From assembly GCF_021032705.1 (NCBI RefSeq), contig NZ_JAHVXI010000003.1:62001-126000 (forward strand): a stretch of DNA of 64,000 nucleotides. The letters are read 5' to 3'. The position numbers and the translations under genes were made by a program. The DNA is from Psychroserpens luteolus. Lineage in GTDB: Bacteria > Bacteroidota > Bacteroidia > Flavobacteriales > Flavobacteriaceae. Positions 46,702 through 64,000 of this stretch are shown here, piece after piece. The number at the start of each line of letters is the position of its first letter. Position 1 is the stretch's first letter. The notes below the pieces were generated by a model that did no database searches, was not told where the DNA came from, and saw only the letters and a list, made by a program, of their open reading frames with translations.

Positions 46702-47709
46702 CTATTTGGTAGTTTCCCTTAAGATGAGATTAGTCTTTATTGTTTTTGTTGTTTTCTTGGTGGTTCCTTTATCCTTTAAACGATTTAAAAGCAATTTGAC
46801 CGAAGCCTTACCTATATCTACAGTATGCTGTGAGATAGTAGACAATTTTGGATTGGTGAATTGAAGTACATTCTCATCTGAAAATCCAATTATGGACAAG
46901 TCACTTGGTACATTATAATTTAGTTTTAGTGCCTTTTGAAGCGCAATGACACCTGAGGTGTTATCAATAGAAATAATACCATCAACCGATTGATATTTAT
47001 TGAATAATTGATCAACGCCATCCTCAATTGATTTATCGTTTTCAATGGTAATGATACTAGGTTCATTCTTATAATCAAAGGCCTCATTTAAGGCTGCCAA
47101 ATACCCATTTGCCCTGAGTTTACCAACACTTAACTCATCAATACTACTCACAAGCACAATATGTTGTCGTCCTTCAGAAAGTAAATGCTTAGTTGCTTCA
47201 TAAGCAGCTCCAAAATCATCTATAATAACCTTATCACAATTAATATCTTCAGAAACCCTATCAAATAATACTACTGGAATATCTTTTTGCAATATCTCAT
47301 TGATATGGTCGACATTATTAGCCACTTGTGTTTCTTCTGCTAGGGATAAAATAAAACCATCAACACTACCATTAGATAATAATTGGAGGCTATTGATTTC
47401 TTTGGATTGCATTTCATTGGAAACACAAGTGATAATATTATAGCCTTGTTTACTGGCCTGCATTTCTATGGCATATAGTGCTTTTGCAAAAAAATGATTA
47501 AGAATATTAGGAATAATTACACCAATCGTATTAGTTCTACTGTTTTTAAGACTTAAAGCTAACTTATTTGGTTTATAGTTTAAAAACTTAGCAAGAGCCT
47601 TTACTCGTTCTATAGTGTCAGGGCTAATTTCGTCGCTATCATGCAATGCTTTTGATACTGTAGAAACAGATACATTTAATTGCTCGGCTAATTGTTTTAA
47701 TGTTACCAT
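46702..47709 (-). CDS. LacI family transcriptional regulator
   Basis: 335 residues. The N-terminal helix-turn-helix reads TLKQLAEQLNVSVSTVSKALHDSDEISPDTIERV, with the hinge helix PNKLALSLK. The rest is a periplasmic-binding-protein-like effector domain (about 60-330). It sits at the downstream end of the beta-glucan locus on the same strand, so it is the natural candidate for controlling that locus in response to a sugar; this is inference from position. It lies 164 bases past the T9SS protein gene and its terminator. Confidence 0.93.
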   Translation of the reverse strand: MVTLKQLAEQLNVSVSTVSKALHDSDEISPDTIERVKALAKFLNYKPNKLALSLKNSRTNTIGVIIPNILNHFFAKALYAIEMQASKQGYNIITCVSNEMQSKEINSLQLLSNGSVDGFILSLAEETQVANNVDHINEILQKDIPVVLFDRVSEDINCDKVIIDDFGAAYEATKHLLSEGRQHIVLVSSIDELSVGKLRANGYLAALNEAFDYKNEPSIITIENDKSIEDGVDQLFNKYQSVDGIISIDNTSGVIALQKALKLNYNVPSDLSIIGFSDENVLQFTNPKLSTISQHTVDIGKASVKLLLNRLKDKGTTKKTTKTIKTNLILRETTK

Positions 47710-47873: not shown

Positions 47874-49388
47874 TTATTTTTTAACCAATTTGATTGTCTT
47901 GCTTCCCGTAGCAGAAGAAACTTTTGCAAAGTATAATCCTGCTTTTAAGTTAGATGCATCAATCTGAGTTTCATTTGCATTTGGAGTTACATTAACCACT
48001 TGCTTTCCTAAAACATCATAAATTTGAATAGACTCGATATCTTGAGTACCTATAACTGTCCAATTGTTTGTTGTTGGATTAGGAAATACAGAAAACTCAT
48101 TTCTAGTAAATTCTTCTGCACCTAAAGTGTTAGACGTACTAAAGAATATATTGTCAAAATAAACCTCTCCATTTCCATCAAATTTCCATTGGAATATATC
48201 ATTTAAATCATAAGTACCACTTGATGGTGTGTGATCTAAGAAATGTTGTAATGGAATAAATACACTCTGCCAAGACCCAGTTACAATTGGGGAATCTGGA
48301 GTAGGTCCACCAAATCTATATCTAGGTTCTTCAGCAGCTCCACCACCAATTCCAGCTGTGGCATCAATTAGGAAGAAATTAAACTCAGTTGTCGTCGTTG
48401 CATAATAGTTTATGTGTACAAATTGATAACCTCCTGCAACTAAATCTTCAGCATCCCATTGTGCACCATAGAAAAAGAAACCTCCACCTTCAATTTTTCC
48501 GGCGTTATTTCCATTCATTTCAATATCTACTTCTGGAACGCCTACGTTACCAAACGCGTAGAAGTTAAAGTTACCAACACTACTACCTGGTAAACCACTG
48601 TAAACATAAAGATCTGTTCCCGTAGAAGGATATTCTGGAGCGGCCATTGTAGGACCAGCAGGTGGACAAGCAGGGCAAGAAGCACCACCACAATCTACAC
48701 CAGTCTCATCTTGATTTTGGATTCCATCATCACAGGTCTCAGGACAGGTTGGACAATCAGGACCACCACAATCTACACCAGTTTCCATACCATTTTGAAC
48801 ACCATCCATACACGTTGGCTCTGGAGCACCTACTTGAACAATGTCGTCAATGTAATACGTCCCAGATTCAGTAACCAAAACACCATCACCAGCAGGGCCT
48901 TCAAGTGCTGGGTCATAATCTGGTTGTATTACCAAAGTAGAATACTGTTCCATACCTGTAAGACCTGGTTGATCAGAAAAATCGAATGTAACTTCGGTCC
49001 ATGTATTCGCATTAGCAACCACAACATCTCTATTGTAAGTTGGCTCTCCACTTAATCCTATTTGGATTTGAAATCTTAATTGAAGGTTAGCTTTCGTTGA
49101 CCAAATTTTCATTGTAAACGCTGTTCCATTCGCCAAGTCAATTAAAGGTGATCCTGGTGTTTCATATCCAAAACCTGCAAACCAGTTAGCTCCAACAAGT
49201 TTATCTACTTGTAGTACTCGAGCAGACATATTTCCTGCACTTACATCAGGATTTGCAATATTAGCAAAACCTAAAGTACCAAATTGAAATGATGCAGTCG
49301 TCGTTGTATCTTCATAATCAACAGGCAAAGATTGCCCAAACGTAATAGCCGAGGCTAATAAAAAGATTAAAATTGTAATTTTTTTCAT
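47874..49388 (-). CDS. secreted T9SS protein with two carbohydrate-binding-like modules
   Basis: 504 residues. Signal peptide (ITILIFLLASAITFG), then a beta-sandwich of ~170 residues ending in SGTYYIDDIVQVG, a pair of 26-residue Cys-rich repeats, a second beta-sandwich (about 265-415) ending GEVYFDNIFFSTS, and a T9SS type A tail (about 420-504, FSVFPNPTTNNWTVIG ... KTIKLVKK). No catalytic domain is seen. The first sandwich closely follows the C-terminal module of the PKD lipoprotein at 58560: shared FTMK, W-x-E-x-TFDF and YYxDxIVQ. It probably binds laminarin or a related glucan at the cell surface. It lies 333 bases past the GH17 gene of the same locus and has its own terminator. Confidence 0.85.
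   Translation of the reverse strand: MKKITILIFLLASAITFGQSLPVDYEDTTTTASFQFGTLGFANIANPDVSAGNMSARVLQVDKLVGANWFAGFGYETPGSPLIDLANGTAFTMKIWSTKANLQLRFQIQIGLSGEPTYNRDVVVANANTWTEVTFDFSDQPGLTGMEQYSTLVIQPDYDPALEGPAGDGVLVTESGTYYIDDIVQVGAPEPTCMDGVQNGMETGVDCGGPDCPTCPETCDDGIQNQDETGVDCGGASCPACPPAGPTMAAPEYPSTGTDLYVYSGLPGSSVGNFNFYAFGNVGVPEVDIEMNGNNAGKIEGGGFFFYGAQWDAEDLVAGGYQFVHINYYATTTTEFNFFLIDATAGIGGGAAEEPRYRFGGPTPDSPIVTGSWQSVFIPLQHFLDHTPSSGTYDLNDIFQWKFDGNGEVYFDNIFFSTSNTLGAEEFTRNEFSVFPNPTTNNWTVIGTQDIESIQIYDVLGKQVVNVTPNANETQIDASNLKAGLYFAKVSSATGSKTIKLVKK
48657..48812 (-). repeat. tandem 26-residue Cys-rich repeat inside the T9SS protein
   Basis: Two 78-base units encode CMDGVQNGMETGVDCGG and CDDGIQNQDETGVDCGG followed by Cys-containing tails (PDCPTCPET and ASCPACPPA). 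DNA identity is high over the core, including an exact 20-base match at 48685-48704 and 48763-48782. Such motifs serve as linkers in many Bacteroidota surface proteins. Confidence 0.85.
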
Positions 49389-49721: not shown

Positions 49722-50630
49722 TTAAAATTTTAATTTTTCGTGTTTATCCCAAAGTCCCCAATAGGCTCCAACATCACCTTCATCGCCAGTTTTCCATGAC
49801 TCGTCAAATGATGAGAAATAAAACACCTCAATACCTGCTTTTTTAGCCCATACCTGAGTATTGATAAAATATTTCATAGCATTCTCTTCGGAAGAAAATG
49901 CCCCCTTCAAACTACCGCCTTGACTAGGCCAGCCAGTCTCTGTAATGATTACTTTTTTACCACGTCCAGCATCCGATGCCTGTCCGAACATTTGCTGCAT
50001 ATGATGTAGCGCGCCATCAATATGGCAGCCTTCCCAATACGGATAGCAATTGCTAAGTATGACATCGCTAATCTCTACAAGCTGAGGATGTACCGAAAAC
50101 TCATAATAGGCGTCGACATAACCCACAGGAATATCTGGCAAAGCCTCTTTGACCCGTCGTATATAGTCTAACAATTCGTCTAGTGACAAATCGTTTCTGT
50201 ACAGTACTTCATTACCAACAGCAGCAATATCAACAACGCCCTCTTTTGCTAATTGAATGAGTCCTTCAATTTCTTTTTCATTATCATCTTTATCATCTCC
50301 CAACCACGCACCTACTAGCGTTTTCATACCGTGCTTGTGGGCGATACGTGGAATATGCTCATTCCCCTCTATACAAGAAAATGAACGAATCCATTTCGAA
50401 TAGGGCTTTAGTATCTTTACACGTCTTTCTACCTGTTCTTCGGTTATGATGTCACCAGGTTCCTGACCATCTTCATACATACTAAAGCAGATCCCATGCA
50501 TTCCTTTTTTAAGTGTTGCTCTCCACAACGTTTTTAATTCTTCTAGTGAATATTTACCGAAATCAATTCCTGAGTGTTCTGCGAAATTAATTCCATTATA
50601 CGCGTGATATTCTTCGTCTCTATATGACAT
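49722..50630 (-). CDS. cytosolic GH17 family beta-1,3-glucan hydrolase
   Basis: 302 residues, a bare GH17 TIM barrel without signal peptide or lipobox (MSYRDEEYHAYNGINF), so probably cytosolic. The acid/base is Glu141 in AVGNE and the nucleophile Glu231 in IITETGWPSQGG. GH17 cuts or transglycosylates beta-1,3-glucans. It is the last gene of the locus, 19 bases after the sugar symporter, and would process imported laminari-oligosaccharides together with the phosphorylase at 55070. It differs strongly from the lipoprotein GH17 at 53769 and is not a recent duplicate. Confidence 0.9.
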   Translation of the reverse strand: MSYRDEEYHAYNGINFAEHSGIDFGKYSLEELKTLWRATLKKGMHGICFSMYEDGQEPGDIITEEQVERRVKILKPYSKWIRSFSCIEGNEHIPRIAHKHGMKTLVGAWLGDDKDDNEKEIEGLIQLAKEGVVDIAAVGNEVLYRNDLSLDELLDYIRRVKEALPDIPVGYVDAYYEFSVHPQLVEISDVILSNCYPYWEGCHIDGALHHMQQMFGQASDAGRGKKVIITETGWPSQGGSLKGAFSSEENAMKYFINTQVWAKKAGIEVFYFSSFDESWKTGDEGDVGAYWGLWDKHEKLKF

Positions 50631-50649
50631 TTAAACTTTAAATTTATAG

Positions 50650-52215
50650 TTATAGTTCTCCTCGTCGTTCAACGAGTTCTTTCTTTATCTCTCTAGCCCT
50701 ATCTTCATTTAGATTATACTTCCACATTACCCAAACCGCAAGTGCTGCAGTTAACGATGGAACCAATATATCGGCTATTCTAAGATTGTTCATAGTCTCT
50801 ATAGATTGCTCAGTAACATTAGGGTCAAATCCTACAATACTTAAAATTACACCGCCCAAAACAAGAGCTATAGACTGACCAATTTTTACCATCAGCCAAT
50901 AGATGGCTCCAAACGTTCCTTCTTTACGAGGCATACCATTCTCCAATTCGTCTAAATCGCAAACATCTGCCGTCATAGACATCATTAAAGTGAACAAACC
51001 TCCCATACCAAAAGCAAATAATGGAATTGGTACAAATATGAGCCATGGTACATCGCTACCTGGATCAATACTGAACCAAGACATTCCAATACTTTCAAGA
51101 GCTGGATTTAGAGATTCGAAAATGGAACTAACTCCAGAATTTAAACTCTCACCAAATCCCGTTTGATTAAATTTATTATTAAGTTCTTTATCAAAACCCC
51201 ACCATTTCAAAACATAGCCAACGATGGATAACACAGTTGAGATTATAAACGCCTTTTTCTTTCCCCATTTATTAGCCATTCTTGTAATAATTGGGATAAC
51301 TATAAATGCTGTAATAATAGCATTAATGGTATTGAACCAAGCAGGCCAAGTACCAGCCATCTCATAACTTCCACTATACATATAAAACACAATAATGAAA
51401 ACACCAAATGCCGCTACAAGCTGAAATCCATTAAACACTAAAAACGTTGCTCCACATAATTTCATGAAAGGTTTATTTTTTGTGACTTGTTTAATACCCT
51501 GCCATAAATCTTTCATATTTGATGCTAACGACTTAAATGTAATTTCTTTTCTATTCTCCATATGAGAAGAATCAATACCCTTACAAAATAATGCTGGCAG
51601 TATTCCAAAAACAACACACATGGCACCAACAATAAGAGCCATTGTACGAACACCTTCTGTTTGCGTATTAAATGTGTCTGTATCAGGAATAATAACATAT
51701 AACCATGGTACAATCATCCAAGCAATTTGCCCCATAGTATTAGAAAAAGCCATTAACCGTGTACGTTCATTATAATCGGAAGTCATTTCATATCCAAGAC
51801 CTACTAATGGTGTTGCAAACATTGTATTACCAATAAGAAATAATAATTGAAGAATCATTACATGCCAAATAATATAAGATTGGGATGCATTATCATCAAT
51901 TTGCCACATTAAAAAGAAAAGTATTCCGCTTATAATTGCTCCAATAAAAATATAAGGTCGTCTTCGTCCCCATCTCGATTTTGTATTATCAGAGATGAAA
52001 CCCATTATTGGATCAGTAATTGAGTCGAATATTCTTGGTAAACCACCTAAAAGCCCAGCCCATAACGGATCAACACCCCAAGCCGTCAATAAGAAAAACT
52101 GAATAAAAACACCAAGAGTACCTGGTAATATATTCAATATAAAATGACCTGCTCCAAAGGCTGCTTTTTGTCCAACTGGGACTTTATCTTTTGCGGCTGT
52201 TTTAATTTTTGACAT
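50650..52215 (-). CDS. GPH-type sugar:cation symporter (MFS)
   Basis: 521 residues, about twelve hydrophobic helices. Motifs of the glycoside-pentoside-hexuronide group are SITDPIMGFISDNTKSRWGRR-type loop, RPYIFIGAI, and MTADVCDLDELENG. An insert near residues 330-380 (NKFNQTGFGESLNSGVSSIF) lengthens a loop. It should import mono- or oligosaccharides across the inner membrane, here products of laminarin digestion. It lies between GH30 and the cytosolic GH17, 23 and 19 bases away. Confidence 0.92.
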   Translation of the reverse strand: MSKIKTAAKDKVPVGQKAAFGAGHFILNILPGTLGVFIQFFLLTAWGVDPLWAGLLGGLPRIFDSITDPIMGFISDNTKSRWGRRRPYIFIGAIISGILFFLMWQIDDNASQSYIIWHVMILQLLFLIGNTMFATPLVGLGYEMTSDYNERTRLMAFSNTMGQIAWMIVPWLYVIIPDTDTFNTQTEGVRTMALIVGAMCVVFGILPALFCKGIDSSHMENRKEITFKSLASNMKDLWQGIKQVTKNKPFMKLCGATFLVFNGFQLVAAFGVFIIVFYMYSGSYEMAGTWPAWFNTINAIITAFIVIPIITRMANKWGKKKAFIISTVLSIVGYVLKWWGFDKELNNKFNQTGFGESLNSGVSSIFESLNPALESIGMSWFSIDPGSDVPWLIFVPIPLFAFGMGGLFTLMMSMTADVCDLDELENGMPRKEGTFGAIYWLMVKIGQSIALVLGGVILSIVGFDPNVTEQSIETMNNLRIADILVPSLTAALAVWVMWKYNLNEDRAREIKKELVERRGEL

Positions 52216-52238
52216 AGTGGTTTAGTTTAGTTAGTGTT

Positions 52239-53744
52239 TTATGACTTAGGCACTACAATTGTTTGAATTGCTTGTGCGTTTATTTTAATATTTACATTGC
52301 TTTCATTTAAATTTAACGTGAAATTCTTGGCGGTTTCGCCTTCATTAAATATGACTACTGCAATAGAATCATCAGGGTTTTTTGCAGCAGTTACCATCAA
52401 GTCTTTATCTGGGTTTTCAACATCAATCACCACAGCTCCTGGCCTCATATATTTGCTGAAATGCGCCATGGTGTAATAAATAGGTGTAAAATAGACCTCG
52501 TCTGCATCTGGATCGACAATAATAGGAGCAACACACCAGTTTTTAAACCAGTTAGGTCCGCCTTGTCTATCTAAAACCATATTCCAATCGACCCATCCAT
52601 CAACCCAGTTATTTAAGCATCCAATAATATCTCGCGCATAACGATTAACAGGTGCATATTTAGGATGCAAATATTTCTCATCTTCTGCTGCCCAATCCCA
52701 GCCCCAATCGGTAGCTTCTTTTGACCAGTACCAGATATCATTTTTCCATTTTGGAACTTCAGAATCTACACAGCCTTCAGTTTCAATTAAATATTTATCA
52801 GGTGCTTTGTTATGAGCGTATTGCAAAGCGTCAGGGAAATAGTCGTAAGTACTTTCATACCAATGAATGGCTGTTCCATCATAATACTTCGATGATTCCT
52901 CAGTAGCATACATGACATCTACCCATTCTTTCAAGCCTGCTCTATTTTGGTCATAACCCAAAATGATTTTATCTCCTTTACCATCGGCTTCGAGTTTCGG
53001 TCCTAAGTGATTCTGTACAAAATCGGTCATTTCTTCTGGAGTAAAGTGCATACTTTCCCAGTTATTTCCATTTCCATGTGGTTCATTTTCAACAGTAAAA
53101 CCCCAAATTGGAATGCCTTCGGCTTCATAAGCATCTACATATTTTGAAAAGAACAAGGCCCAAGTATCATAGTATTTAGGCAATAATTTTCCGCCAACCC
53201 ATTCCTTATTATCTTTCATCCAAGGTGGTGCTGTCCATGGCGACGCAAAAATATCGAAGCCATCTTCTGAGATTGCCATAGCTTCTTTTATCATTGGAAT
53301 AAGATCATCCATATCATCTTTGATAGTAAAATGTTCTAACATCATATCATCTTCAACAGGTGCATACGAATACTGACTCAACGAAAAATCACAGGAGTTC
53401 ATATGCGTTCGCGTTAATGAATAATTTGCTCCTTCTCTACTGAAATAAGCCTTCAATATTTTATCTCTATTGGCTTTACTTAATTTGTTTAACAAATAAG
53501 CAGAAGACTCAGTAAATGCACCTCCAAAGCCAGTAATAGTTTGAAATTTTTTATCAGGATTAATTTTTAAAACAGGCAAAGAATCTGTCGTTGAAACTTC
53601 ATTGATTCTTGTGAGCTGATTTCCGCTTGCTGATGTTTCATAAATCTCAACTTCAAGCAAGTCTTGTCCTATTTCTTTTTTTTCGTTACAACCTATCATA
53701 ACTAGTACTAAAAGGGAATAAAAAATGTAGCTTACGGTTTTCAT
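52239..53744 (-). CDS. GH30 family glycosidase, lipoprotein
   Basis: 501 residues. Lipobox MIGC (Cys19) marks a lipoprotein. The GH30 (beta/alpha)8 barrel with side beta-domain has the acid/base Glu221 in FTVENEPHGN and the nucleophile Glu323 in LIETEGCVD. GH30 members in laminarin loci remove beta-1,6-linked glucose side chains (exo-beta-1,6-glucosidase/glucosylceramidase-like). Positions +2 to +5 after the Cys (NEKKE) lack a run of acids, so the periplasmic face of the outer membrane is likelier than the cell surface. It sits 23 bases from the symporter gene and 24 bases from the GH17 gene. Confidence 0.93.
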   Translation of the reverse strand: MKTVSYIFYSLLVLVMIGCNEKKEIGQDLLEVEIYETSASGNQLTRINEVSTTDSLPVLKINPDKKFQTITGFGGAFTESSAYLLNKLSKANRDKILKAYFSREGANYSLTRTHMNSCDFSLSQYSYAPVEDDMMLEHFTIKDDMDDLIPMIKEAMAISEDGFDIFASPWTAPPWMKDNKEWVGGKLLPKYYDTWALFFSKYVDAYEAEGIPIWGFTVENEPHGNGNNWESMHFTPEEMTDFVQNHLGPKLEADGKGDKIILGYDQNRAGLKEWVDVMYATEESSKYYDGTAIHWYESTYDYFPDALQYAHNKAPDKYLIETEGCVDSEVPKWKNDIWYWSKEATDWGWDWAAEDEKYLHPKYAPVNRYARDIIGCLNNWVDGWVDWNMVLDRQGGPNWFKNWCVAPIIVDPDADEVYFTPIYYTMAHFSKYMRPGAVVIDVENPDKDLMVTAAKNPDDSIAVVIFNEGETAKNFTLNLNESNVNIKINAQAIQTIVVPKS

Positions 53745-53768
53745 TGTTGATTTTTTTATTTGACATAT

Positions 53769-55055
53769 CTATCGATTTGCCATTATTTCGTCTAGAGCTG
53801 GAGGTACTAAAACATCTTCCATCAAAGCAGCCTTATTACCATTATATGTTTTGGTTATTGGATTACCATTTCTCGTTAACCCATCAAAAACACCATCATC
53901 TACTAAATCCCATATTGGGTATTTTGCCTTTCCATCAATCGTAAACAATCCGAAATGGTTTTCAGAACCATTTGGATGATGTGCATCTTTCCATTGTTCA
54001 TTAAAAGCTTCAAAATAGAAGCACGAAATTCCAGCAGTATTCGTCCATTCTCTCATGAGTTTGTGGTACAAACCTTGTTTGTATTCATCTGTTGCTCTAG
54101 AGCCATTAGGTCCGTAGAACCCTTTAGACACTGTTGCCCATCCTGTTTCTCCAATATGAATAGGTTTGTTAACACCGATGCTTTTCATGTAATTAGTAAC
54201 ACTATCGTACTGACGTTTAGAAAATTGGATAGCACGTTCTATTGCAGCATGAATCTTATCACTATCTGTAAGACTATCTTCGGCTTCAGGGACTCCCCAA
54301 AATTCAGGGTTGTAATGTGAATTGTGATAAGGATAGGTGTGCATCGAAATATAATCTACGGCTTTGATTAATTTTTCTAGATCTTCAACATGATATTGGT
54401 CTTCGCCACCTCCCCATGATGCAAAATCATCAGAACTGGTTATCCATAAATCTTTCGGAAGTTTGTCTTGCGTCTTTAATTCTTGTAAATGTGTTACCCA
54501 TTTTAATATCACGTTAGGTTGCACATAATAGCTTTCTGCCCATTTGACCATAGCTTCATTTCCTACAGCCAAAACCTTAACAATGTCTGGGTATTTATTA
54601 GCCAAAGCTACAGCTCTTTCTATTTCCGCTGCATTATTAGGACTCTCAACGTTATGATCTACTGGTTGATCTGTCCATGCGTTTAGACAATCAATCCATG
54701 CACCTAACATCACATACATCTCGAAATTTGAGTCTTCTTTTTTAAGCTCTGTAATCGCTTTTAAAATATTTGAAGCATGCGGAAGTTGTACATTATATGT
54801 TCGTAATACTTTGATACCCATTGCAGACAATAGCTTCATATCATCTTTGAGTTCTTTAATTGTTGGCTGACTATCTCTAGATTTTTCGCGGTAACCTCCA
54901 TAAGATATTGCTAAATAATTAGGATTTCCTAATATCTCTTTAGCAGTCATTTGTTTGCCTCTTTGCATGTCTTTGTTAGATTTTGGGTTTTGATTACAAG
55001 ATGACATGATCATTGAAATAATTATTGCACATAGGATATTTACTTTCAATTTCAT
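53769..55055 (-). CDS. GH17 family beta-1,3-glucanase, lipoprotein
   Basis: 428 residues. Lipobox SSC (Cys20) with hydrophobic IIISMIM before it. The GH17 barrel has acid/base Glu167 in VLAVGNEAM and nucleophile Glu303 in IGETGWATVSKG. It should cut beta-1,3-glucan main chains or oligosaccharides at the outer membrane or in the periplasm; residues after the Cys (NQNPKS) show no acidic surface-export signal. It lies 14 bases past the phosphorylase gene and 24 before GH30. Confidence 0.92.
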   Translation of the reverse strand: MKLKVNILCAIIISMIMSSCNQNPKSNKDMQRGKQMTAKEILGNPNYLAISYGGYREKSRDSQPTIKELKDDMKLLSAMGIKVLRTYNVQLPHASNILKAITELKKEDSNFEMYVMLGAWIDCLNAWTDQPVDHNVESPNNAAEIERAVALANKYPDIVKVLAVGNEAMVKWAESYYVQPNVILKWVTHLQELKTQDKLPKDLWITSSDDFASWGGGEDQYHVEDLEKLIKAVDYISMHTYPYHNSHYNPEFWGVPEAEDSLTDSDKIHAAIERAIQFSKRQYDSVTNYMKSIGVNKPIHIGETGWATVSKGFYGPNGSRATDEYKQGLYHKLMREWTNTAGISCFYFEAFNEQWKDAHHPNGSENHFGLFTIDGKAKYPIWDLVDDGVFDGLTRNGNPITKTYNGNKAALMEDVLVPPALDEIMANR

Positions 55056-55069
55056 GTGTTTGATATTTT

Positions 55070-58000
55070 TTACTTTAAAATTGATTTATTAATACTTATG
55101 GTAATGCGCTCTACTAAACCTGATCTAGCAAAAATCTCGTTACTAGTGTTTCTATCAAGAACCAAGCTGTTAAGCGTTTTTTGTGAACTTTTAGTAGTTT
55201 CTACTTCAATCCAATTCTCATATCCCATTTTATAAATTATAGGCACTTGGCAATATGTAAAAGCTAAGGAACCAACTTCAAGTTCTATTGACTTCCAGTT
55301 GTTGTTTACATCAACATAGTTAAGGAGTTTAGATTCTGTCAAGAATTCCTCTTCTCTCAATAAACAAGGGTTAAAAAGCAATTGTCCTTGTTTAACAAAT
55401 ATTCCTAGTTCTCCAAAACGACTCAAAATATCCTCTTTAACTTGTCCTGTCATTCCTGGCTGTTGTGCTCCCTTTCCTCCTGGTGTATGCGAATATGGAT
55501 CGGTTGGAAAAGCACCATATAGTGCTGGAGACTTATGTACGCCAATCCCTTCATTAATTTCATAAAAATGCTCTAGTAATTGCCCGATTATAGCTTCGCT
55601 TTCGTCATCATTTACTGCTTTTATACAACATTCTTGTACAGCCAGTAATAATTTTGAAACCATATGCCAATAGATCGATCCTAACCCTTCATAACCATAG
55701 AATGTTCCAGATCTTCCTGTAAACGCTTTATGATTAAACACCTCTTCGAAAGCTTGCAACACTTTTGGAGTGTCTGACTCTAAAAGTGCTTCATATTTTG
55801 TTCCTGAAAGATTTTCTAACGCTAAAGAAACGTCGCTAGCATTCTTAAAGTTTCCATTAAAATGATAGTCGCCATTAACATCTTTTTCGATGATTTGAAC
55901 ATTTCCATCCTTTAACAATTCTTGGAATAATTTTGATGAAAAAACGGCATCTTCAGGAATCGTATTTCTGTCTAAAAACCCTTTAAGTTCTTTATTAGGA
56001 TACAGCATATAACTGTATTGATCCTCTCTAAAAAGCTTGCTTTGTTTTAATGCATTTAAGACATTTAGTGTTTCTGTAGCTTTTAAATAACCAGAACTCA
56101 AAACAGCCACTTGACCTTCTAACATTTCACTTAAATAAGAAATGGAAATAGAGTTATCTGCATTTACAGTCATGAGGTTATAAGCATGATATAAATTATC
56201 AGAACGCTTATTAGCTTTAATTGAATGCTCTAAATAAGACTTACCAATTGTTACAAAATCCTTCAATCTATTAATCGAAAGTGCTGTTTTTCTTCCTGAA
56301 AAGGCATGGTTATAGATTTGAGTTCTATACTTACTACCTGCATTTCCTAAACCATCTAATATTATTTTTTTATCTGTATCATTAATCGCTGCTGATAATA
56401 AGTCTTTATTATTTTCGAAGGTATTTAATACAGAATCGAAGAATTCAGATAGCTCAACAGAAACGTCTACTTGATCAATACTAGTCGTTGTAAGTAACTT
56501 TTCAAAGAAATTAAAGAATCTACGCAGATAATAAAGCGTCACCATAGATATTCCATTACCTACCAAAGCATTATTTGCATCGTTCCATTCGGGACGTTGT
56601 GTATTCATCCAAATACCACCTTCGGGAATAAAGTTTGATAGTTTTGCCAAAGATGTCACTAATATTTTTTCAATAAAATTTGCTTTAACTATAAATCTGT
56701 TTTCATCACGAAGTAAGGCACCATCTGCGCCTAATTGTTCACGCTCTTCATTAATTTTATGATCTAATGCATCATCAAAAACGATGGTGTCTTTTGGATT
56801 TTTTAGTAAGTCTGCGTATGGCTTAATTTTATAAGGTACATTGGCATAGACAAATAGATCTTTTGTAAAGAAACTTTCTAATTTATCTGGGTTATGGCTA
56901 TTAATAAATTCTAAAAACTTAAGTAAGTAGATAATTTGATGATCTCCCCAATATCCAATGTAAGACCATGGGTCGTCTGGTTCAATTATTTCCCAATCAA
57001 AACCATCTTTTGTTACCCTATATGGGTTATAGCCATCAAATGTTGTTGCGTTTAAAAATTTATGAATCATACTTTCAATGAACTCTGGATATGAGTGTGC
57101 TAGCGCTTCCCAGTTTTGGAAGATATCTCGCCAATTGCCTTCATAATCTAAAATTTTAGATCCATCAATTTCACTTCTTGTATTAATTGAAAATTTATTC
57201 CAAGGACGACTTGGGTCGCCATGTCTACGACTAAATTTTAATGGCATATACTCTAAACAAAGGCGTCTAAAGTTTTTATCATCACTATTGTATGCTATTT
57301 CTTGTATTTCTGATAAAGAAAACACTTCTGGAAGGGTATCTAATATTTCTTCAGATGTTCGTGCAACTTTTTTATTTGCATTGTGAAGATAGTTGCTAAA
57401 ATCCCATTTTTCAATTTGATAACCATTATCAAAAATTCCTCCACGCATAATGTTAAATAGCGTATTAGAAAAGTGACGCGTATCTCTTAAACTATCTGCA
57501 GACACTTGAATGGCATCTGATGCCGAATTCAACTCCACTAATCGTTTAGTACCATGATCAATGTTCTCATTAACTTTATCGACTAATGTATCATCCTCGC
57601 GTATTTTCTTTAACAACAACGCAATATCTGAGTGATTTTGATTAACATTAGCGACTAGCATCCATTCTTTAGAAGAATCTGCTAGTAATTCTATTTCCGT
57701 AGAAACAAAATAAGCCCCTTTTTCAGCTTTAACATCTACTTCTTGTGTTAAAGATTGACCAGACCTAAAAGCATCTAGTTGTAATGACGATAGTAAATAC
57801 TTAGGGTTATTTAAACCTAATGACCAAACAACATTTGCTTTTAATGCTTCACTTGCTTCAGCTTTATCAACAAGAATAGCACTAAGTGCATAGATTCCAA
57901 GTCCAGTTGACTCTTCTAGCTCATTTCGTTTATAGGCATCTACTAAATTACTAGATTGGTTTTGAATATCACTACCAATACTTGCTGGCAAAATATTTTG

Positions 58001-58537
58001 AATACCATCTAATAATGTTATACTTACAGATTCTGTAGCAGTATTAATTAATTTAGATTTTTTTACAAAACCAAACTTATTACTAGAGCTCCATTGGTAT
58101 CTAAATATTAACTCTAAGTCATGATTGATCTCTTCAAAAATAATTTTGTTTCCATATCTATTCTTATACAAGTTTTGAGTTGTAGAATACCTACCCAAAG
58201 ATCTAATAGCCAGTGGTTCCCACATGAACTCTTGATTATTTTTATGAACTTTGAAGATTGATTTATTTCCGGTTATATCAGCAGATTCGGTAATCTTATC
58301 ATCTGTATAGTAAGGAAATAGAGCATATTCAGAATTTTTACGTCCAGCCGTTAGTCCTCCATTACTCGATATAAACATCCAGTGATTAGAATCACTGACG
58401 ATACTCATAAAAAAAGGACGAATTTCATCACTATTAGAAATCTTGTAATAAGATTCATTATCAATAACTAAATCTATTAATCTGACTTTTTTTTCTTTAG
58501 AAATATTATTTTCCATTAAAGTTGCTTCGGTTATCAT
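55070..58537 (-). CDS. GH149/GH94-like beta-1,3-oligoglucan phosphorylase
   Basis: 1155 residues, no signal peptide, so cytosolic. The size and the catalytic segment point to GH149 rather than the shorter GH94. The likely general acid is Asp653 in NTQRPEWNDANNALVGNG, the same place as the WND/DWND acid of GH94 phosphorylases. A conserved C-terminal block contains TPGGKGAQQPGMTGQVKEDI. GH149 enzymes reversibly phosphorolyse beta-1,3-oligoglucans to glucose 1-phosphate. Two starts are possible: the ATG at 58537 or the ATG at 58516. It lies 22 bases past the PKD lipoprotein gene. Function is inferred from family and locus, not proven. Confidence 0.85.
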   Translation of the reverse strand: MITEATLMENNISKEKKVRLIDLVIDNESYYKISNSDEIRPFFMSIVSDSNHWMFISSNGGLTAGRKNSEYALFPYYTDDKITESADITGNKSIFKVHKNNQEFMWEPLAIRSLGRYSTTQNLYKNRYGNKIIFEEINHDLELIFRYQWSSSNKFGFVKKSKLINTATESVSITLLDGIQNILPASIGSDIQNQSSNLVDAYKRNELEESTGLGIYALSAILVDKAEASEALKANVVWSLGLNNPKYLLSSLQLDAFRSGQSLTQEVDVKAEKGAYFVSTEIELLADSSKEWMLVANVNQNHSDIALLLKKIREDDTLVDKVNENIDHGTKRLVELNSASDAIQVSADSLRDTRHFSNTLFNIMRGGIFDNGYQIEKWDFSNYLHNANKKVARTSEEILDTLPEVFSLSEIQEIAYNSDDKNFRRLCLEYMPLKFSRRHGDPSRPWNKFSINTRSEIDGSKILDYEGNWRDIFQNWEALAHSYPEFIESMIHKFLNATTFDGYNPYRVTKDGFDWEIIEPDDPWSYIGYWGDHQIIYLLKFLEFINSHNPDKLESFFTKDLFVYANVPYKIKPYADLLKNPKDTIVFDDALDHKINEEREQLGADGALLRDENRFIVKANFIEKILVTSLAKLSNFIPEGGIWMNTQRPEWNDANNALVGNGISMVTLYYLRRFFNFFEKLLTTTSIDQVDVSVELSEFFDSVLNTFENNKDLLSAAINDTDKKIILDGLGNAGSKYRTQIYNHAFSGRKTALSINRLKDFVTIGKSYLEHSIKANKRSDNLYHAYNLMTVNADNSISISYLSEMLEGQVAVLSSGYLKATETLNVLNALKQSKLFREDQYSYMLYPNKELKGFLDRNTIPEDAVFSSKLFQELLKDGNVQIIEKDVNGDYHFNGNFKNASDVSLALENLSGTKYEALLESDTPKVLQAFEEVFNHKAFTGRSGTFYGYEGLGSIYWHMVSKLLLAVQECCIKAVNDDESEAIIGQLLEHFYEINEGIGVHKSPALYGAFPTDPYSHTPGGKGAQQPGMTGQVKEDILSRFGELGIFVKQGQLLFNPCLLREEEFLTESKLLNYVDVNNNWKSIELEVGSLAFTYCQVPIIYKMGYENWIEVETTKSSQKTLNSLVLDRNTSNEIFARSGLVERITISINKSILK

Positions 58538-58559
58538 GCTTTGTAAGCTGTATTGGTAT

Positions 58560-59399
58560 TTATTGTTGAACTATTTCATCAAAGTAGTAAATGTCACCAT
58601 CACAATCTGCGTTTCTTTCAAAATATATGATCATACTCTGAAAGGTTCCTGTAGGGACATCTGTGAAATCAAAAGTAAGTTCTTGCCATTCTCCGATTTG
58701 AGTGATATTAGCAACTCTATCTTGAGAAGGCTCAGTATTTGGAAATGGCATAAACTCTAAACGAAGGGTGACTTCAGTAATTTGAGTTTCTGCTAAAACC
58801 TTCATTGTAAACGTTTTATTAGATGTTGTAGAAAAATCTATTGAAGTTGCTAAACCAACACCAAGTCCAGCAAAGGTTTGACATCCTGTAGTTTTTTCAT
58901 ATCGTTGTACTTTACAACTTGAGTTTACAGCATCTATTACAGGGTTATCAACTATAAAACCAGCAGTATTTCCGAAAGCGTCAAATGTTGCATTTCCATT
59001 AGCATCTAAGAACGTCCAATTTATATCTCCATTTGCAGGATCAAGATTCTCAGCAGATTCATCGGTACAAACAGGAATATCTATAACAAATGTTTCTTGA
59101 AATGTATCTGCATTGCCATTAATATCAAATGCAGTTAAGGTTACTGTATATGTACCATTTTCATAAGTTACAGATGGCTCTGCTAATGTAGATGATGTTC
59201 CATTGCCAAAATCCCAAGAATAATTTACAGCATCGTTTGATACATTAATAAACGAAATAGTTCTTACATCAATATTGCTTAGAAATCTTGCATCTAATTC
59301 TATAACTTCTCCAGCACCTCCATCACCTTCACAACTTGTTAATCCAAAGGAAAAAATTGTTACGATTATGATACTTATTTTATATTTTAAAAATCTCAT
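58560..59399 (-). CDS. PKD-domain lipoprotein with carbohydrate-binding-like module
   Basis: 279 residues. Lipobox LTSC, followed by EGDGGAGE (acidic, as in surface-export signals). A PKD domain is clear at about 40-105 (NYSWDFGNGTSSTLAEPSVTY). The C-terminal ~140 residues form a beta-sandwich-like module with FTMKVL, WQELTFDFTDVP and IYYFDEIVQQ, matching the first module of the T9SS protein at 47874. It has no catalytic signature and probably holds glucan at the cell surface, like the SusE/F-type binders of other loci. 15 bases past GH16. Confidence 0.88.
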   Translation of the reverse strand: MRFLKYKISIIIVTIFSFGLTSCEGDGGAGEVIELDARFLSNIDVRTISFINVSNDAVNYSWDFGNGTSSTLAEPSVTYENGTYTVTLTAFDINGNADTFQETFVIDIPVCTDESAENLDPANGDINWTFLDANGNATFDAFGNTAGFIVDNPVIDAVNSSCKVQRYEKTTGCQTFAGLGVGLATSIDFSTTSNKTFTMKVLAETQITEVTLRLEFMPFPNTEPSQDRVANITQIGEWQELTFDFTDVPTGTFQSMIIYFERNADCDGDIYYFDEIVQQ

Positions 59400-59414
59400 G
59401 TTTTTATATTTAAA

Positions 59415-60290
59415 TTAATTGTACACTCTCACATAATCCACATACATGCGCTGTGGAAAAACTGTTTCTGCATTAGGAGCACCTGGTAAAGATCCACCTA
59501 CAGCCATGTTGATAATAATGTAAAACGGACGATTAAACACCCATTCACCAGTATTTTGAGGAGCTCCCTCTTCTACTCCAATTGCTTCTTCTGCAGCATC
59601 TTGAGGAGTTAAAGTTTGATATAAATCTCCATCGACGTAATAATTGATATAGTTAGGTCCCCATTCTATTCCGAAAACATGAAATCCTGTATCAAAACGA
59701 TCATTTTCAATCTCGTATTCTTTAGTTAATGCATCTCCAGCATTATACCCTGGACCATGAGCACTACCAAAGACTACAGTAGGGCGATTACCAACATATT
59801 CCATGACATCAATTTCTCCGCATTGTGGCCATGGGTTTTGATCACAATCGTTACCTAAAAGCCAAAATGCCGGCCAGATACCTTTTCCATATGGCAAACG
59901 AATTCGAGCTTCAAAGCGACCATATTGCTGTTCAAATAAGCCTTGAGTGGTTAATCTAGCAGAGGTGTAATTTGAGGATTCGAAAGCCTCTTCTCTTGCC
60001 GTTAATACTAATAATCCATTTTCTACAGTTACATTTTCAGGTCTATCAGTATAATATTGCAATTCATTATTACCCCAACCTGCTGGTAATCCTTGAGCGG
60101 TTCCATCTCCAATATCATAAGTCCACATTGACGAATCTGGAGTACCATCTATATCAAACTCATCTTGCATCACTAGGTTATTAAGTTGAGTTACTTCCTG
60201 AGTTTCGTCAGTATTACAAGCGCTTATCAATAGGGCTACCATAAATAATAGCACTAATTTTATCTTGTTAAATGATTTTATATATTTCAT
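59415..60290 (-). CDS. GH16 family beta-1,3-glucanase (laminarinase-type), lipoprotein
   Basis: About 291 residues from the ATG at 60290; a longer frame to 60317 is open but puts extra residues before the lipobox. Lipobox ISAC, then NTDETQE, an acidic surface-type signal. The GH16 catalytic motif is GEIDVMEYVG with Glu159, Asp161 and Glu164, the canonical EIDxxE. Supporting strands are GKGIWPAFWLLG and INYYVDGDLYQTL. It should cleave beta-1,3 or mixed glucans at the surface. It lies 26 bases past the Ig/CBM lipoprotein gene. Confidence 0.94.
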   Translation of the reverse strand: MKYIKSFNKIKLVLLFMVALLISACNTDETQEVTQLNNLVMQDEFDIDGTPDSSMWTYDIGDGTAQGLPAGWGNNELQYYTDRPENVTVENGLLVLTAREEAFESSNYTSARLTTQGLFEQQYGRFEARIRLPYGKGIWPAFWLLGNDCDQNPWPQCGEIDVMEYVGNRPTVVFGSAHGPGYNAGDALTKEYEIENDRFDTGFHVFGIEWGPNYINYYVDGDLYQTLTPQDAAEEAIGVEEGAPQNTGEWVFNRPFYIIINMAVGGSLPGAPNAETVFPQRMYVDYVRVYN

Positions 60291-60316
60291 GTTCTTTTGT
60301 TTATAAATTATAGCCA

Positions 60317-61780
60317 TTATTCATTGTAAAAATATACGTTATCTACCCATATATCTGAGATAGTTGCATCTGAAACGAAGAATAGTTGTCCTAAATTAGC
60401 AAGGTCTGAAAATCCTGAAAAGTTAGAAATTGGAATGTCTAGACTTAACCAACCATTTTCGTCAGTATTTCCTAAAGCAGTAGAATTCAATATAAAGTCC
60501 CCACTAGTAGTAGAACCAGTACCTGTTCCACTTTCAAGAGATAATCTTATAAAATCACCACCATCGATAGCTTCTCTTATATTAATATCTACATGTAAAT
60601 GAGACATTGCACTTATATCAACTAAAGACACAGTTTCATAAGTTCCAATACTAACAAAGTTTAGCATTGTATAGTTTATAATATTATCAAGTCCACCTCC
60701 TGGTAAAGGCACTTGTAAATCAACATTATTAGGATCTGCTCCAGCACCACCTTGTGTAGTTGCAAATTGAAAGAAACCATTATAGTGTCTTACAGGAACA
60801 TTTGTATATGCATCACTAAAGAGCGACACAACGTTTGCAGGGTCTCTAGTTGGAATAGGCGCGCTAGGGAATGGACCATTAGATGTGAGTTCTAAAGAAC
60901 CTTCTGCTAAATTAGCACCAACACTAGCTGTAATAGTAGTAGTACCTACTCCAATAACTGTTATCTCACCCGATTCTGAAACTGTTGCTACAGATTCATT
61001 AGAAGATGAAAAGTCAAAGTAACTAGGAGCTGCATTAACTGTTTGATTGATGCCTGTCGGTAAATTAACGGTATATGAAGTTCCTGAAACCTGAATAGTA
61101 GAACCTACAAAAGCCTCTTGTACAAGAGAAGCACCACTAAAGATTTGGGGTACTTCTTGACCTAGAGTTCCTAGGGTTTCAAATCGTAGTTCGTCTATCC
61201 AAAATGTAAATCCAAAACCATTTGTGCTTTGTGTTCCAGCAGCAAAGAGAAACATTCCCTTTTCTTGAAGAAGCTTAGAAGGATCTGGGATAGGGATTAT
61301 GTATTTTTTCCAATCAGTCGATAATTGAACATTAGGAAAACTTACAGCGTATTTATCCTCTACAAAATCGGTTCCAAAACCTGCTTCAACAATACCTGTT
61401 GTAGACCCTTTAGCCCAGAACGTTAAGGCATCATATTGTGTTAAATTTCTACCCGCTCCAGCATCTTCAAAAATTCCGCCTATAAACCCTCCGTCTGGAT
61501 CATTAGGTGCAGGTACATCTATTCTAATTGATATGCTTCCTTCAAAAGCTTCACCATTATCAGTACCAAAACCATTGACATTTGCACCTGCAGCTGGGTC
61601 AAACGAATTAAAAAACTCTTCTGTAAGTCCTATTGGTGTATCTGTAAAAATATCACCTATAGTGGGAAATGTAGCTGGAACTGCGTCATCAGAAATATCT
61701 CTCTCACATCCATAAGTAAGAATTAGAATCAATCCTAATAAGAATGTATTGTTTAATTTGATTAATTTCATTGTTTTCAT
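60317..61780 (-). CDS. lipoprotein with Ig-like and carbohydrate-binding-like domains
   Basis: About 487 residues from the ATG at 61780, which follows the upstream stop by 10 bases; a longer frame to 61843 overlaps that gene and was not used. A hydrophobic start ends in TYGC followed by ERDISDD, an acidic surface-type signal. A beta-sandwich (about 40-200, YDALTFWAKG ... FTFWIDELRFETLG), a BIG2-type Ig domain (about 235-305, SNESVATVSESGEITVIGVG), and a C-terminal sandwich ending ISDIWVDNVYFYNE follow. No catalytic site. It probably binds laminarin at the surface. Confidence 0.87.
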   Translation of the reverse strand: MKTMKLIKLNNTFLLGLILILTYGCERDISDDAVPATFPTIGDIFTDTPIGLTEEFFNSFDPAAGANVNGFGTDNGEAFEGSISIRIDVPAPNDPDGGFIGGIFEDAGAGRNLTQYDALTFWAKGSTTGIVEAGFGTDFVEDKYAVSFPNVQLSTDWKKYIIPIPDPSKLLQEKGMFLFAAGTQSTNGFGFTFWIDELRFETLGTLGQEVPQIFSGASLVQEAFVGSTIQVSGTSYTVNLPTGINQTVNAAPSYFDFSSSNESVATVSESGEITVIGVGTTTITASVGANLAEGSLELTSNGPFPSAPIPTRDPANVVSLFSDAYTNVPVRHYNGFFQFATTQGGAGADPNNVDLQVPLPGGGLDNIINYTMLNFVSIGTYETVSLVDISAMSHLHVDINIREAIDGGDFIRLSLESGTGTGSTTSGDFILNSTALGNTDENGWLSLDIPISNFSGFSDLANLGQLFFVSDATISDIWVDNVYFYNE

Positions 61781-61790
61781 TGTTTCGTTT

Positions 61791-64000
61791 TTATTTTCCA
61801 ATATTGATATGTACATAGGTTCTAATCTCCCACTCCGAACCATCAGGAAATCCAGCTGGACTTAATATTGGTTGTGGAGGAAAGTCATCAGTAAATGTGT
61901 TCGTAGGAGAATACCTTGGTGAGAATTGATCTAGAGCTCTCCATGTTCCTCTTATTCCAATTCGTGTACTTGGTAGAATAAACCAATCTGGTTTACCCAA
62001 TGAGGTTGAAACGTCTAGCATTAATTGTAATGGGAATGTTAAGTTAAAATCCCTATGGTAATCGAAAGGTCCCCAATCATTAATTTTTACATGTGTTCGT
62101 AGACTCATTTTCTTGTAAATCATTCTGATATCTGCGCCAAAACGATCAATTGTTCTATCACTATCACCATTAGCTTGTCCATTTCCGTAGTAGAAATTAC
62201 CAATCAACCCTAATTCTGGGCTAATTTTAGATACCATTCTAGAATGTAGCTCCCATAAGTCGTCAGCAGGTACTGATGTTGGGAATGCAAAAAATGTACG
62301 ATTAGCTTGGAAACCAATATGAGCATCCATTGTTGTAGGAAGGTGGCGGAATACAAATCCTAAATTCATTGCAAATTTAGCGTCTTCGGCTCTATCATTA
62401 TCCCACGAATACATCCATGTTCCAGGCGTTGGATCGTAGGTAAGTAATAATTCAGCTCCTGTGGTTTCTCTATTACCATTTCTTACCGCGAAAGGATCGC
62501 TAATAACATTTCTTAATCTCCCAGGTGCATCACCACCGTTGGGCATAGGGTCAACTAACGGTTTTTGATACATAAAGTTTGGTGCAATTTGAAAATCGCC
62601 AATTGTATATGTAAAACCACTTAAAATACTAGACACATTTCCACTACCTGAATCTCTCAATTTCCATCCCGTGAAGGTTTGAGTTTGATCGGCTCCACCA
62701 TTAGCAACTAAGCCCATGATAGCACCTTGAGCATACCAATTAAACTTACCACCTCCATAAGTGATTTTTGCTTTAGCACCCCAATTGTCTTTGCCTTGTA
62801 CTTGATCTAATACAACTTCTCCGTTGTCGATATCTTGATATGTACTACCATTTAATGGACTTCCACCCCAGATTGCCCCGAGTGTCACTCCTACTTTTCC
62901 AAAATCTCTTTCTACAACAAGTGTTGCGCGTTCTGTTGGCCACGCTGGTATAATACCACTTCGCACTTGATTGGCATCCAATACACGTTGACCGTTTTCA
63001 TCAAATTCTAAATCGGTTTCAATATCTCTATGGTATATACCAGTAATTTCATAATTACCAACTTTACGTTGATACTTCAATAAAGCGGTTGGATTAGCTC
63101 CCCACCATAATTGAGGTCCGAATGCCGCTTTTAAACCATTAAGAGATCCTTTACCGTTGAATTCCATCCCAAGTATCTCACCATTATAAATATCTAAGTT
63201 TGGACCATAGTTAGCTTCAGGATACAATCCGAAGAAATCGCCTTCATATCCCCAATGGTAATGCCCAGTTCTGTAAAAACCTTTAATATCAGCATATTTT
63301 GTATTCCATTCGAATTCAGCATTATAAACTCTTAGTCTGTTAAAGTCATCGATTTCTACATCTAAATCATTTCCTCCTTCAACGCCAACAACAGTAATTG
63401 GTCTACCTACATTCTCATAAAATATTTCATCAATTGGGTTTTCTGCTACATTACCCAAAATATTAAAGTTTAAATTAGCTCTCATATTTGGTGCTGGATT
63501 ACCTTCAATTCCAACGAAATACGACTGCATATGATCAAAACCTAATTGATTAGGAAACACATTGGCATTTGGGTCTTCAGTTTCAGGAGTAGTTATCAAA
63601 CTCCCACCTGTACTAAATGTTGTAAAACGAGCACCTAGATTACTAATTCTTATTTTCTGACTTCCGCCGCCTCCTAAAGCAGCTTTATCTCCTCTTGCTC
63701 TGAGTACAGCGTCCATTAATTCAATATTATTAAAGTAATTTGACATGAACTCTGGAGTCATTTCAGGGTTATACGGATCTAATTTATGTACTTCTTTAAG
63801 CGCATAATAAGCAGCTCTAGGATATAATGTGTATAATCCTCTAGCATCTGTTGGTCCTTTTGCACAAATACCAAACCACTCTTCATTCATATTGAGATCA
63901 CCTTCTTTTGCTTGATCTCTACTATATCCTCCATTTGGCCAAACAGCAACATTATCATGAACATCTAAGTTTTCAGTTTGTTTATATTTCCACCAACCAT
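61791..64000 (-). CDS. GH2-like glycosidase end fused to a long beta-barrel-like tail (5' truncated)
   Basis: The frame stays open to the right edge, so at least 736 residues are visible and the start lies beyond 64000. The first ~75 visible residues resemble the end of a GH2-type TIM barrel (NGGYSRDQAKEGDLNMNEEW, ... YPRAAYYALKEVHKLDPY, like the PxPaLyEvKKVYQ end of beta-galactosidases). The remaining ~650 residues have many short alternating strands with aromatic residues and Gly/Asn turns (GFYRTGHYHWGYEGDFF; DRFGADIRMIYKKMSLRTH), like an outer-membrane beta-barrel. It ends with INIGK, not the usual C-terminal Phe. The gene is the first visible member of the glucan locus. Confidence 0.7.
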   Translation of the reverse strand, partial: GWWKYKQTENLDVHDNVAVWPNGGYSRDQAKEGDLNMNEEWFGICAKGPTDARGLYTLYPRAAYYALKEVHKLDPYNPEMTPEFMSNYFNNIELMDAVLRARGDKAALGGGGSQKIRISNLGARFTTFSTGGSLITTPETEDPNANVFPNQLGFDHMQSYFVGIEGNPAPNMRANLNFNILGNVAENPIDEIFYENVGRPITVVGVEGGNDLDVEIDDFNRLRVYNAEFEWNTKYADIKGFYRTGHYHWGYEGDFFGLYPEANYGPNLDIYNGEILGMEFNGKGSLNGLKAAFGPQLWWGANPTALLKYQRKVGNYEITGIYHRDIETDLEFDENGQRVLDANQVRSGIIPAWPTERATLVVERDFGKVGVTLGAIWGGSPLNGSTYQDIDNGEVVLDQVQGKDNWGAKAKITYGGGKFNWYAQGAIMGLVANGGADQTQTFTGWKLRDSGSGNVSSILSGFTYTIGDFQIAPNFMYQKPLVDPMPNGGDAPGRLRNVISDPFAVRNGNRETTGAELLLTYDPTPGTWMYSWDNDRAEDAKFAMNLGFVFRHLPTTMDAHIGFQANRTFFAFPTSVPADDLWELHSRMVSKISPELGLIGNFYYGNGQANGDSDRTIDRFGADIRMIYKKMSLRTHVKINDWGPFDYHRDFNLTFPLQLMLDVSTSLGKPDWFILPSTRIGIRGTWRALDQFSPRYSPTNTFTDDFPPQPILSPAGFPDGSEWEIRTYVHINIGK

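Follow-up and report, generated by a model that had tools for sequence, protein, structure and literature searches.

How does laminarin, one of the main marine algal sugars, enter a bacterium whose laminarin operon encodes neither SusC nor SusD? In Bacteroidota, laminarin uptake is commonly attributed to SusCD. The question is raised by a stretch of Psychroserpens luteolus DNA, 64,000 nucleotides long and hereafter called the window, which spans bases 62001-126000 of C32, a contig of 442 kb in a 3.84 Mb genome; positions without a prefix are those of the window. The operon consists of nine minus-strand genes running from C32:126973 (window 64973) down to window 49722, which encode in order a fusion protein, a Big_2 lipoprotein (Big2lip), a GH16, a PKD lipoprotein, a GH149, a GH17 lipoprotein, a GH30, an MFS_2/GPH-like symporter and a cytosolic GH17. 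None of the genes from the preceding regulator to the end of the operon encodes the SusC/SusD of a canonical polysaccharide utilization locus (PUL). We propose, at about even chances, that the operon belongs to the published laminarin variant B and begins with an enzyme-coupled protein of the outer membrane through which beta-1,3-glucan would enter.

The operon starts outside the window, its first gene being that of the 1060-residue fusion (C32:123791-126973, window 61791 to 64973). An initial annotation of the window overlooked this gene, which is cut by the window edge, and it predicted that SusC/SusD or a replacement must lie to the right. Both halves of that prediction have a counterpart: the fusion gene, starting inside the window at 61791, is a candidate replacement, and a SusCD pair does lie 43 kb to the right, outside the operon.

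The fusion protein

The fusion comprises a signal peptide, a GH158-like TIM barrel (24-395), two helices (407-432) and a predicted 24-strand barrel (441-1057). The best profile matches of the enzyme domain are to BuGH158 (1.9e-7) and another GH158 (2.9e-5), so that the profile favors GH158, though no single stretch is significant alone against the BuGH158 structure 6pal. Counted on the printed alignment with 6pal, both catalytic Glu residues of BuGH158 and the Asn preceding one of them align to the enzyme domain, which thus has the TIM barrel, Asn-Glu acid/base and Glu nucleophile of GH158 in clan GH-A; Glu169 and Glu273 of the fusion are invariant in 26 of 26 sequences. The GH2 TIM-barrel domain PF02836 also matches (29.6 bits, above the Pfam cut-off of 21); extra domains ahead of the TIM barrel are a general trait of GH2. 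The mature fusion begins directly with its TIM barrel. Domains before the TIM barrel are described for the GH2 enzyme compared in PMC7157763. We regard the enzyme domain as a putative clan GH-A, GH158-like glucanase.

Compared with the endo-beta-1,3-glucanase BuGH158 (6pal; PMC7157763), the enzyme domain shares the clan GH-A barrel, the catalytic Glu pair and the Asn, with remote sequence similarity; beyond the TIM barrel, BuGH158 has an Ig-like domain, whereas the fusion has helices and an outer-membrane barrel. The helix pair also occurs in barrel-less homologues and hence seems part of the enzyme, leaving a linker of about 8 residues. In one relative, the enzyme domain is joined to a GH16 in place of the barrel (L175:8379-10436, 685 aa), an arrangement that supports a shared beta-glucan substrate.

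The C-terminal half is predicted to be a 24-strand outer-membrane barrel. In the AlphaFold2 model, from which we picked the 24 strands ourselves, the strands are connected by long loops on one side (mean 24.3 residues, n=12) and by short turns on the other (mean 5.3, n=11; p 1e-4), an asymmetry that places the N-terminal enzyme, by prediction, on the periplasmic side. The best 50 matches to the barrel from each of two structure-search programs are membrane beta-barrels. Mean column identity over the barrel (about 620 residues) is 72%, loops included; conservation averages 0.76 in extracellular loops and 0.78 in strands, and three extracellular loops, rich in aromatic and acidic residues, reach 0.96-0.98. 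Searches for a plug or TonB-dependent receptor domain on the fusion returned no match in Pfam (E up to 1) or NCBIfam (E up to 0.1).

Linkage to laminarin genes and relation to SusCD

Single frames covering 94% or more of the fusion protein are found in 56 of 299 Flavobacteriaceae genomes and, by the same measure, in 33 of 395 Bacteroidota genomes from several families, this one included. GH149 accompanies the fusion in all 33, against 70 of the 395 genomes overall (Fisher 7e-29), and lies on the same contig within 20 kb in 31 of the 33. In ten further genomes the enzyme half is present but no whole barrel; GH149 is found in nine of these, and G411 and G522, which belong to the ten, hold broken fusions. 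An intact barrel without the enzyme was found in none of the 395 genomes, with up to three candidates scored in each, a screen that weaker stand-alone barrels may escape. The barrel as a stand-alone family was likewise rejected, its profile matching 35 of 395 genomes, namely the 33 fusion genomes and the broken genes in G411 and G522. One scan of viral contigs found no virus-borne copies. A broken fusion gene elsewhere (L161:1271-4176) is followed by what by eye appears to be a transposase gene.

We compared 80 named loci, the best 80 of 576 relatives and hence a sample that leans to close kin; the closest, from an uncultured Psychroserpens, encodes a fusion protein 98% identical to ours. Requiring a 9 kb flank left 66 loci for upstream counts (14 of 80 dropped for short flanks) and 69 for downstream counts (11 dropped). 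Big2lip and GH16 genes are each present in 69 of 69 loci downstream of the fusion, alongside GH149 in 62, the GH17 lipoprotein in 60, GH30 in 46 and GPH in 26, the last two being undercounted because flanks stop at 10 kb. Six more distant fusion loci also have Big2lip (6/6), although in L167 the match is only partial and sits at the outermost edge. Among 11 loci having the enzyme without a whole barrel, Big2lip is the next gene in none and is nowhere in the available stretch as best hit; four of these barrel-less loci (L155, L160, L177 and L178) are close to the end of a contig, L178 retains the start of the barrel behind a stop, and SusCD is present in 3 of the 11. Like SusCD, the fusion and Big2lip combine an outer-membrane barrel with a surface lipoprotein in a glycan locus; unlike SusCD, the barrel has no detected plug or TonB-receptor domain, the partner has no Pfam match to a SusD domain, and an enzyme is fused.

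The genome encodes seven SusCs above the family cut-off, of which the nearest (C32:170034-172991) lies 43 kb from the fusion gene. This SusC is 46-71% identical to 20 upstream SusCs (>700 residues) of related fusion loci, to which the genome's other SusCs are only about 30% identical, and in a tree it branches within their clade. We conclude that the genome has a laminarin SusCD in a cluster of its own (C32:165460-173057; L168, L169; at about 103-111 kb on the scale of the window), made up of the laminarin-clade SusC, a SusD and two PKD lipoproteins; the same cluster is present in a sister genome (L180). SusCD genes further along the same operon were sought and rejected, the operon being bounded by the fusion gene, beyond which come the regulator and genes that, judged by eye, are unrelated.

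In relatives, with SusC detected across the 80 loci by a profile built from the seven SusCs of this genome, 43 of 66 fusion loci have no SusC or SusD within 10 kb upstream. We searched 42 of these 43 genomes (L042 left out) for SusC genome-wide, using this genome's laminarin SusC as query, and did not find a laminarin-clade SusC in 34: the best hits of 24 fall outside the clade in the tree, 3 gave weaker, unplaced hits, and 7 gave nothing at E 1e-100, the genomes of Winogradskyella jejuensis, Nonlabens tegetincola and Muriicola jejuensis being examples. The fusion locus can thus do without SusCD, which is missing upstream in 43 of 66 loci, while the search of 42 genomes turned up no laminarin-clade SusC in 34.

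Entry route and rival explanations

A possible but doubtful extension of these results is that the fusion and Big2lip form a SusCD-independent importer, made one-way by the glucanase digesting the arriving chain, that would be the sole dedicated laminarin entry in many Bacteroidota; sequence, conservation, linkage and catalytic residues are observed, barrel and topology are predicted, and transport by the fusion, binding by Big2lip and the direction of flow are what we infer. Several points weigh against the fusion as an entry protein. Psychroserpens itself retains a laminarin-clade SusCD, and SusC or SusD stands upstream of the fusion in 23 of 66 loci, by which the fusion as a strict replacement of SusCD everywhere is rejected. 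A laminarin-clade SusC (47-99% identity) is present in 7 of the 42 genomes searched, with one more borderline (G718); G679 and G680 were put in the clade by identity (99 and 92%), outside the tree. The count of 34 places only the best hit per genome (two for G686), with up to 19 candidates scored in each, several of the 42 are metagenome-assembled genomes (MAGs), and SusCs of other clades may transport laminarin. The AlphaFold2 models are of moderate confidence (full fusion, pLDDT 73.6 and pTM 0.51; barrel alone, 70.5 and 0.70). The top Foldseek matches of the barrel are TonB-dependent receptors at a TM-score of only about 0.36, so that the fold search singles out no porin, and among the structures listed for the enzyme domain GH2, GH158, GH157 and GH5 tie, which leaves its family unsettled; this list and that of the second program for the barrel may omit families, whose absence there is uninformative. 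Finally, the surface or periplasmic placement of the lipoproteins considered below is judged from residue composition only, and that of GH30 is unclear.

A minority explanation, in our estimation, is that the barrel merely anchors a periplasmic glucanase at the outer membrane, where it meets incoming glucan, and that SusCD or general porins provide the way in. It draws on the barrel-less homologues, some of which appear by eye to bear a lipobox, as though either a lipid or a barrel could do the anchoring, and on the SusC or SusD genes upstream in 23 loci and the laminarin-clade SusCD of this genome. Yet a 620-residue, 24-strand barrel at 72% identity including its loops far exceeds what anchoring needs, a surface lipoprotein constantly accompanies the fusion, and 34 of the 42 genomes without upstream SusCD gave no laminarin-clade SusC. 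It seems improbable that the enzyme instead passes through its own C-terminal barrel, in the manner of an autotransporter, and works at the cell surface: the order of signal peptide, enzyme, helix and C-terminal barrel does resemble type V secretion, but type V barrels have 12 strands rather than the 24 predicted here, Pfam detects no autotransporter domain on the fusion at E up to 1, and the helix pair seems to be the enzyme's own, leaving only the short linker. We consider it very improbable that the barrel is an usher-like platform for exporting or assembling the operon's surface lipoproteins or GH16, a resemblance of fold only; no usher domain is found by Pfam at E up to 1, the surface lipoproteins carry the acidic type of signal that was enough for export in PMC5080379, and linkage to GH149 and glucan genes suits import.

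Import by the fusion, if correct, would bear on published systems. The operon resembles laminarin PUL variant B (PMC6298971; seemingly variant 1 of PMC10108472), described in Formosa, Polaribacter and Muricauda (PMC6246565, PMC13188888), in having GH16, GH30, two GH17s, an MFS transporter, often GH149, a PKD protein and a LuxR regulator, and its gene order matches the Muricauda description (PMC13188888). It differs in that SusCD lies outside the operon here and in the identity of one gene: what the Muricauda paper gives as an upstream GH2 of such clusters is the barrel fusion, since the Muricauda record SGIU01000001.1 is our locus L065, where the gene between regulator and Big2lip encodes the fusion. 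A search of titles and opening abstracts in the open-licence literature found no description of the barrel half. PMC5827456 describes clusters having GH149 without susCD, and PMC10108472 one MAG whose variant 1 laminarin PUL has no susCD; the fusion could explain how such clusters work, and it offers a concrete second candidate for laminarin entry where no laminarin-clade SusC was found. PMC10108472 also describes a MAG from a bloom that has a laminarin PUL with GH149; an unclassified GH0 in the top 10% of its transcripts could be the fusion protein. In joining a transporter to a glucanase, the fusion recalls FbGH17B of the same pathway (PMC6246565), an inner-membrane MFS-GH17 protein of which it would be the outer-membrane counterpart.

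Remaining pathway and neighboring genes

The features of the operon and its downstream neighbors, all on the minus strand, are as follows.

61791..64000, continuing to C32:126973 (window 64973), minus: fusion protein, C-terminal 735 residues in the window (gene calls, AlphaFold2 models)
60317..61780, minus: Big2lip, Big_2-domain lipoprotein of 487 aa that probably binds glycan; acidic residues follow its lipid cysteine (domain, lipobox)
59415..60290, minus: GH16 lipoprotein, probably an endo-glucanase at the surface; acidic residues follow its lipid cysteine (Pfam, lipobox)
58560..59399, minus: PKD-domain lipoprotein of 279 aa that probably binds glycan at the surface (Pfam, lipobox)
55070..58537, minus: GH149 beta-1,3-glucan phosphorylase without signal peptide (NCBIfam, match to 6hq6)
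53769..55055, minus: GH17 lipoprotein in the MlGH17A/FbGH17A position; probably a periplasmic endo-glucanase (Pfam, lipobox, PMC13188888)
52239..53744, minus: GH30 lipoprotein that probably removes beta-1,6 branches, perhaps in the periplasm (Pfam, lipobox, PMC6246565)
50650..52215, minus: MFS_2/GPH-like symporter, inner membrane (Pfam; TIGR00792 at 203 bits, under the 231 cut-off)
49722..50630, minus: cytosolic GH17 with transglycosylase-type Glu141, Tyr144, Trp199, Glu200 and Glu231 (Pfam, residue alignment)
47874..49388, minus: type IX secretion system (T9SS)-tailed protein, 504 aa, outside the operon (domain search)
46702..47709, minus: LacI-family regulator adjoining the operon (Pfam)

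The initial annotation's inventory of GH16, GH17 and GH30 lipoproteins, symporter, second GH17 and phosphorylase on one strand is borne out, Pfam finding GH16, two GH17, GH30 and MFS_2 domains on the products, and so is its spacing of 10-26 bases: with lipobox-guided starts the gaps are 10, 26, 15, 22, 14, 24, 23 and 19 bases. Its GPH symporter is GPH-like and an MFS_2 protein by Pfam, with a TIGR00792 score short of the cut-off. The 1155-residue product, called GH149/GH94-like in the annotation, is a GH149 (1804 bits against the NCBIfam equivalog, cut-off 1150); it matches the solved GH149 Pro_7066 (6hq6; PMC6484121) at 1688 bits, the two being alike nearly end to end and both without a signal peptide. 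Neither the GH149 nor the 302-residue GH17 has a lipobox or, by eye, a signal sequence, again as first described. A laminarin pathway ending in phosphorolysis in the cytosol, which would conserve energy as then envisaged, is well supported by family membership, synteny and publications on this operon type; because this kind of operon and GH149 in such loci are already published, and the phosphorolytic route itself has been proposed (PMC5827456, PMC6484121, PMC13188888), the idea is not new. Seven of the 69 related loci lack GH149 and five of these have a GH3 glucosidase in its place, a replacement described for Muricauda (PMC13188888); no GH3 was seen by eye in the remaining two (L095 and L102). 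Phosphorolysis is thus one of two exchangeable endings. The genome encodes two phosphoglucomutase-family proteins (PF02878).

The annotation placed hydrolysis outside the cell, which fits GH16 better than the other enzymes. Acidic residues after the lipid cysteine act as a lipoprotein export signal (PMC5080379), and we scored related-locus proteins bearing a lipobox for at least two Asp/Glu among the six residues after that cysteine. The score is reached by 73 of 78 GH16s (some of them second, upstream GH16s), 65 of 65 Big2lips, 34 of 35 PKD proteins and 17 of 18 SusDs, and by only 10 of 47 GH17s and 12 of 29 GH30s, both of which are richer in Lys/Arg. This composition suggests that the GH16, Big2lip, PKD and SusD lipoproteins are at the surface and the GH17 lipoprotein in the periplasm, as perhaps, less clearly, is GH30.

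The second GH17, which the annotation listed without a signal peptide, is cytosolic and looks like a transglycosylase of the MlGH17B type. Its Glu141, Tyr144, Trp199, Glu200 and Glu231 correspond at a constant offset of 8 to Glu133, Tyr136, Trp191, Glu192 and Glu223 of the glucanosyltransglycosylase MlGH17B (PMC11005184, which also prints Glu233 for the last); neither protein has a signal peptide, and the function here is assigned by homology. The glucose-releasing FbGH17B carries Met at the Tyr position. Among copies found in the loci, Tyr is present in 8 of 8 stand-alone cytosolic GH17s (that of the window included) and Leu or Phe in 3 of 3 MFS-fused copies (L173:10453-12810, L175:1113-3482 and L178:8617-10968), and this residue may mark hydrolase versus transferase.

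Taken as a pathway, these assignments would run as follows. To judge from domains and export signals, the surface lipoproteins Big2lip and PKD would hold laminarin while GH16 cuts it; oligosaccharides would then cross the outer membrane through the fusion barrel, aided by Big2lip, with the laminarin-clade SusCD as a further entry route in this genome. At the periplasmic mouth of the barrel, where the predicted topology puts it, the GH158-like domain would cut the emerging glucan and so keep the gradient inward. By homology to characterized enzymes, GH30 would strip beta-1,6 branches and the GH17 lipoprotein shorten the chains, after which the symporter would bring oligosaccharides into the cytosol; there GH149 would phosphorolyse them to glucose 1-phosphate, and the second GH17 would transfer glucanosyl units and release laminaribiose. 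The sugar is probably sensed by the regulator before the operon, a 933-residue protein with propeller repeat, Y_Y_Y and LuxR-type domains and, by eye, a signal sequence and membrane span, whose gene is separated by 327 bases from that of the fusion.

Beyond the operon, the T9SS-tailed protein gene follows after 333 bases and the LacI regulator gene after a further 164. The downstream end was compared in four relatives: all four have a T9SS-tailed protein related to this one in the same place (in three, the match covers only the C-terminal half), and three have the LacI regulator. To the right of the Y_Y_Y/LuxR regulator, same-strand genes (C32:130217-139175; L003:6218-15176) resemble by eye a purine-breakdown cluster, with deaminases, a nucleoside hydrolase and a xanthine-dehydrogenase-like protein, and a 3554-codon open frame (C32:145601-156265; L004:2602-13266) lies between the operon and the SusCD cluster.

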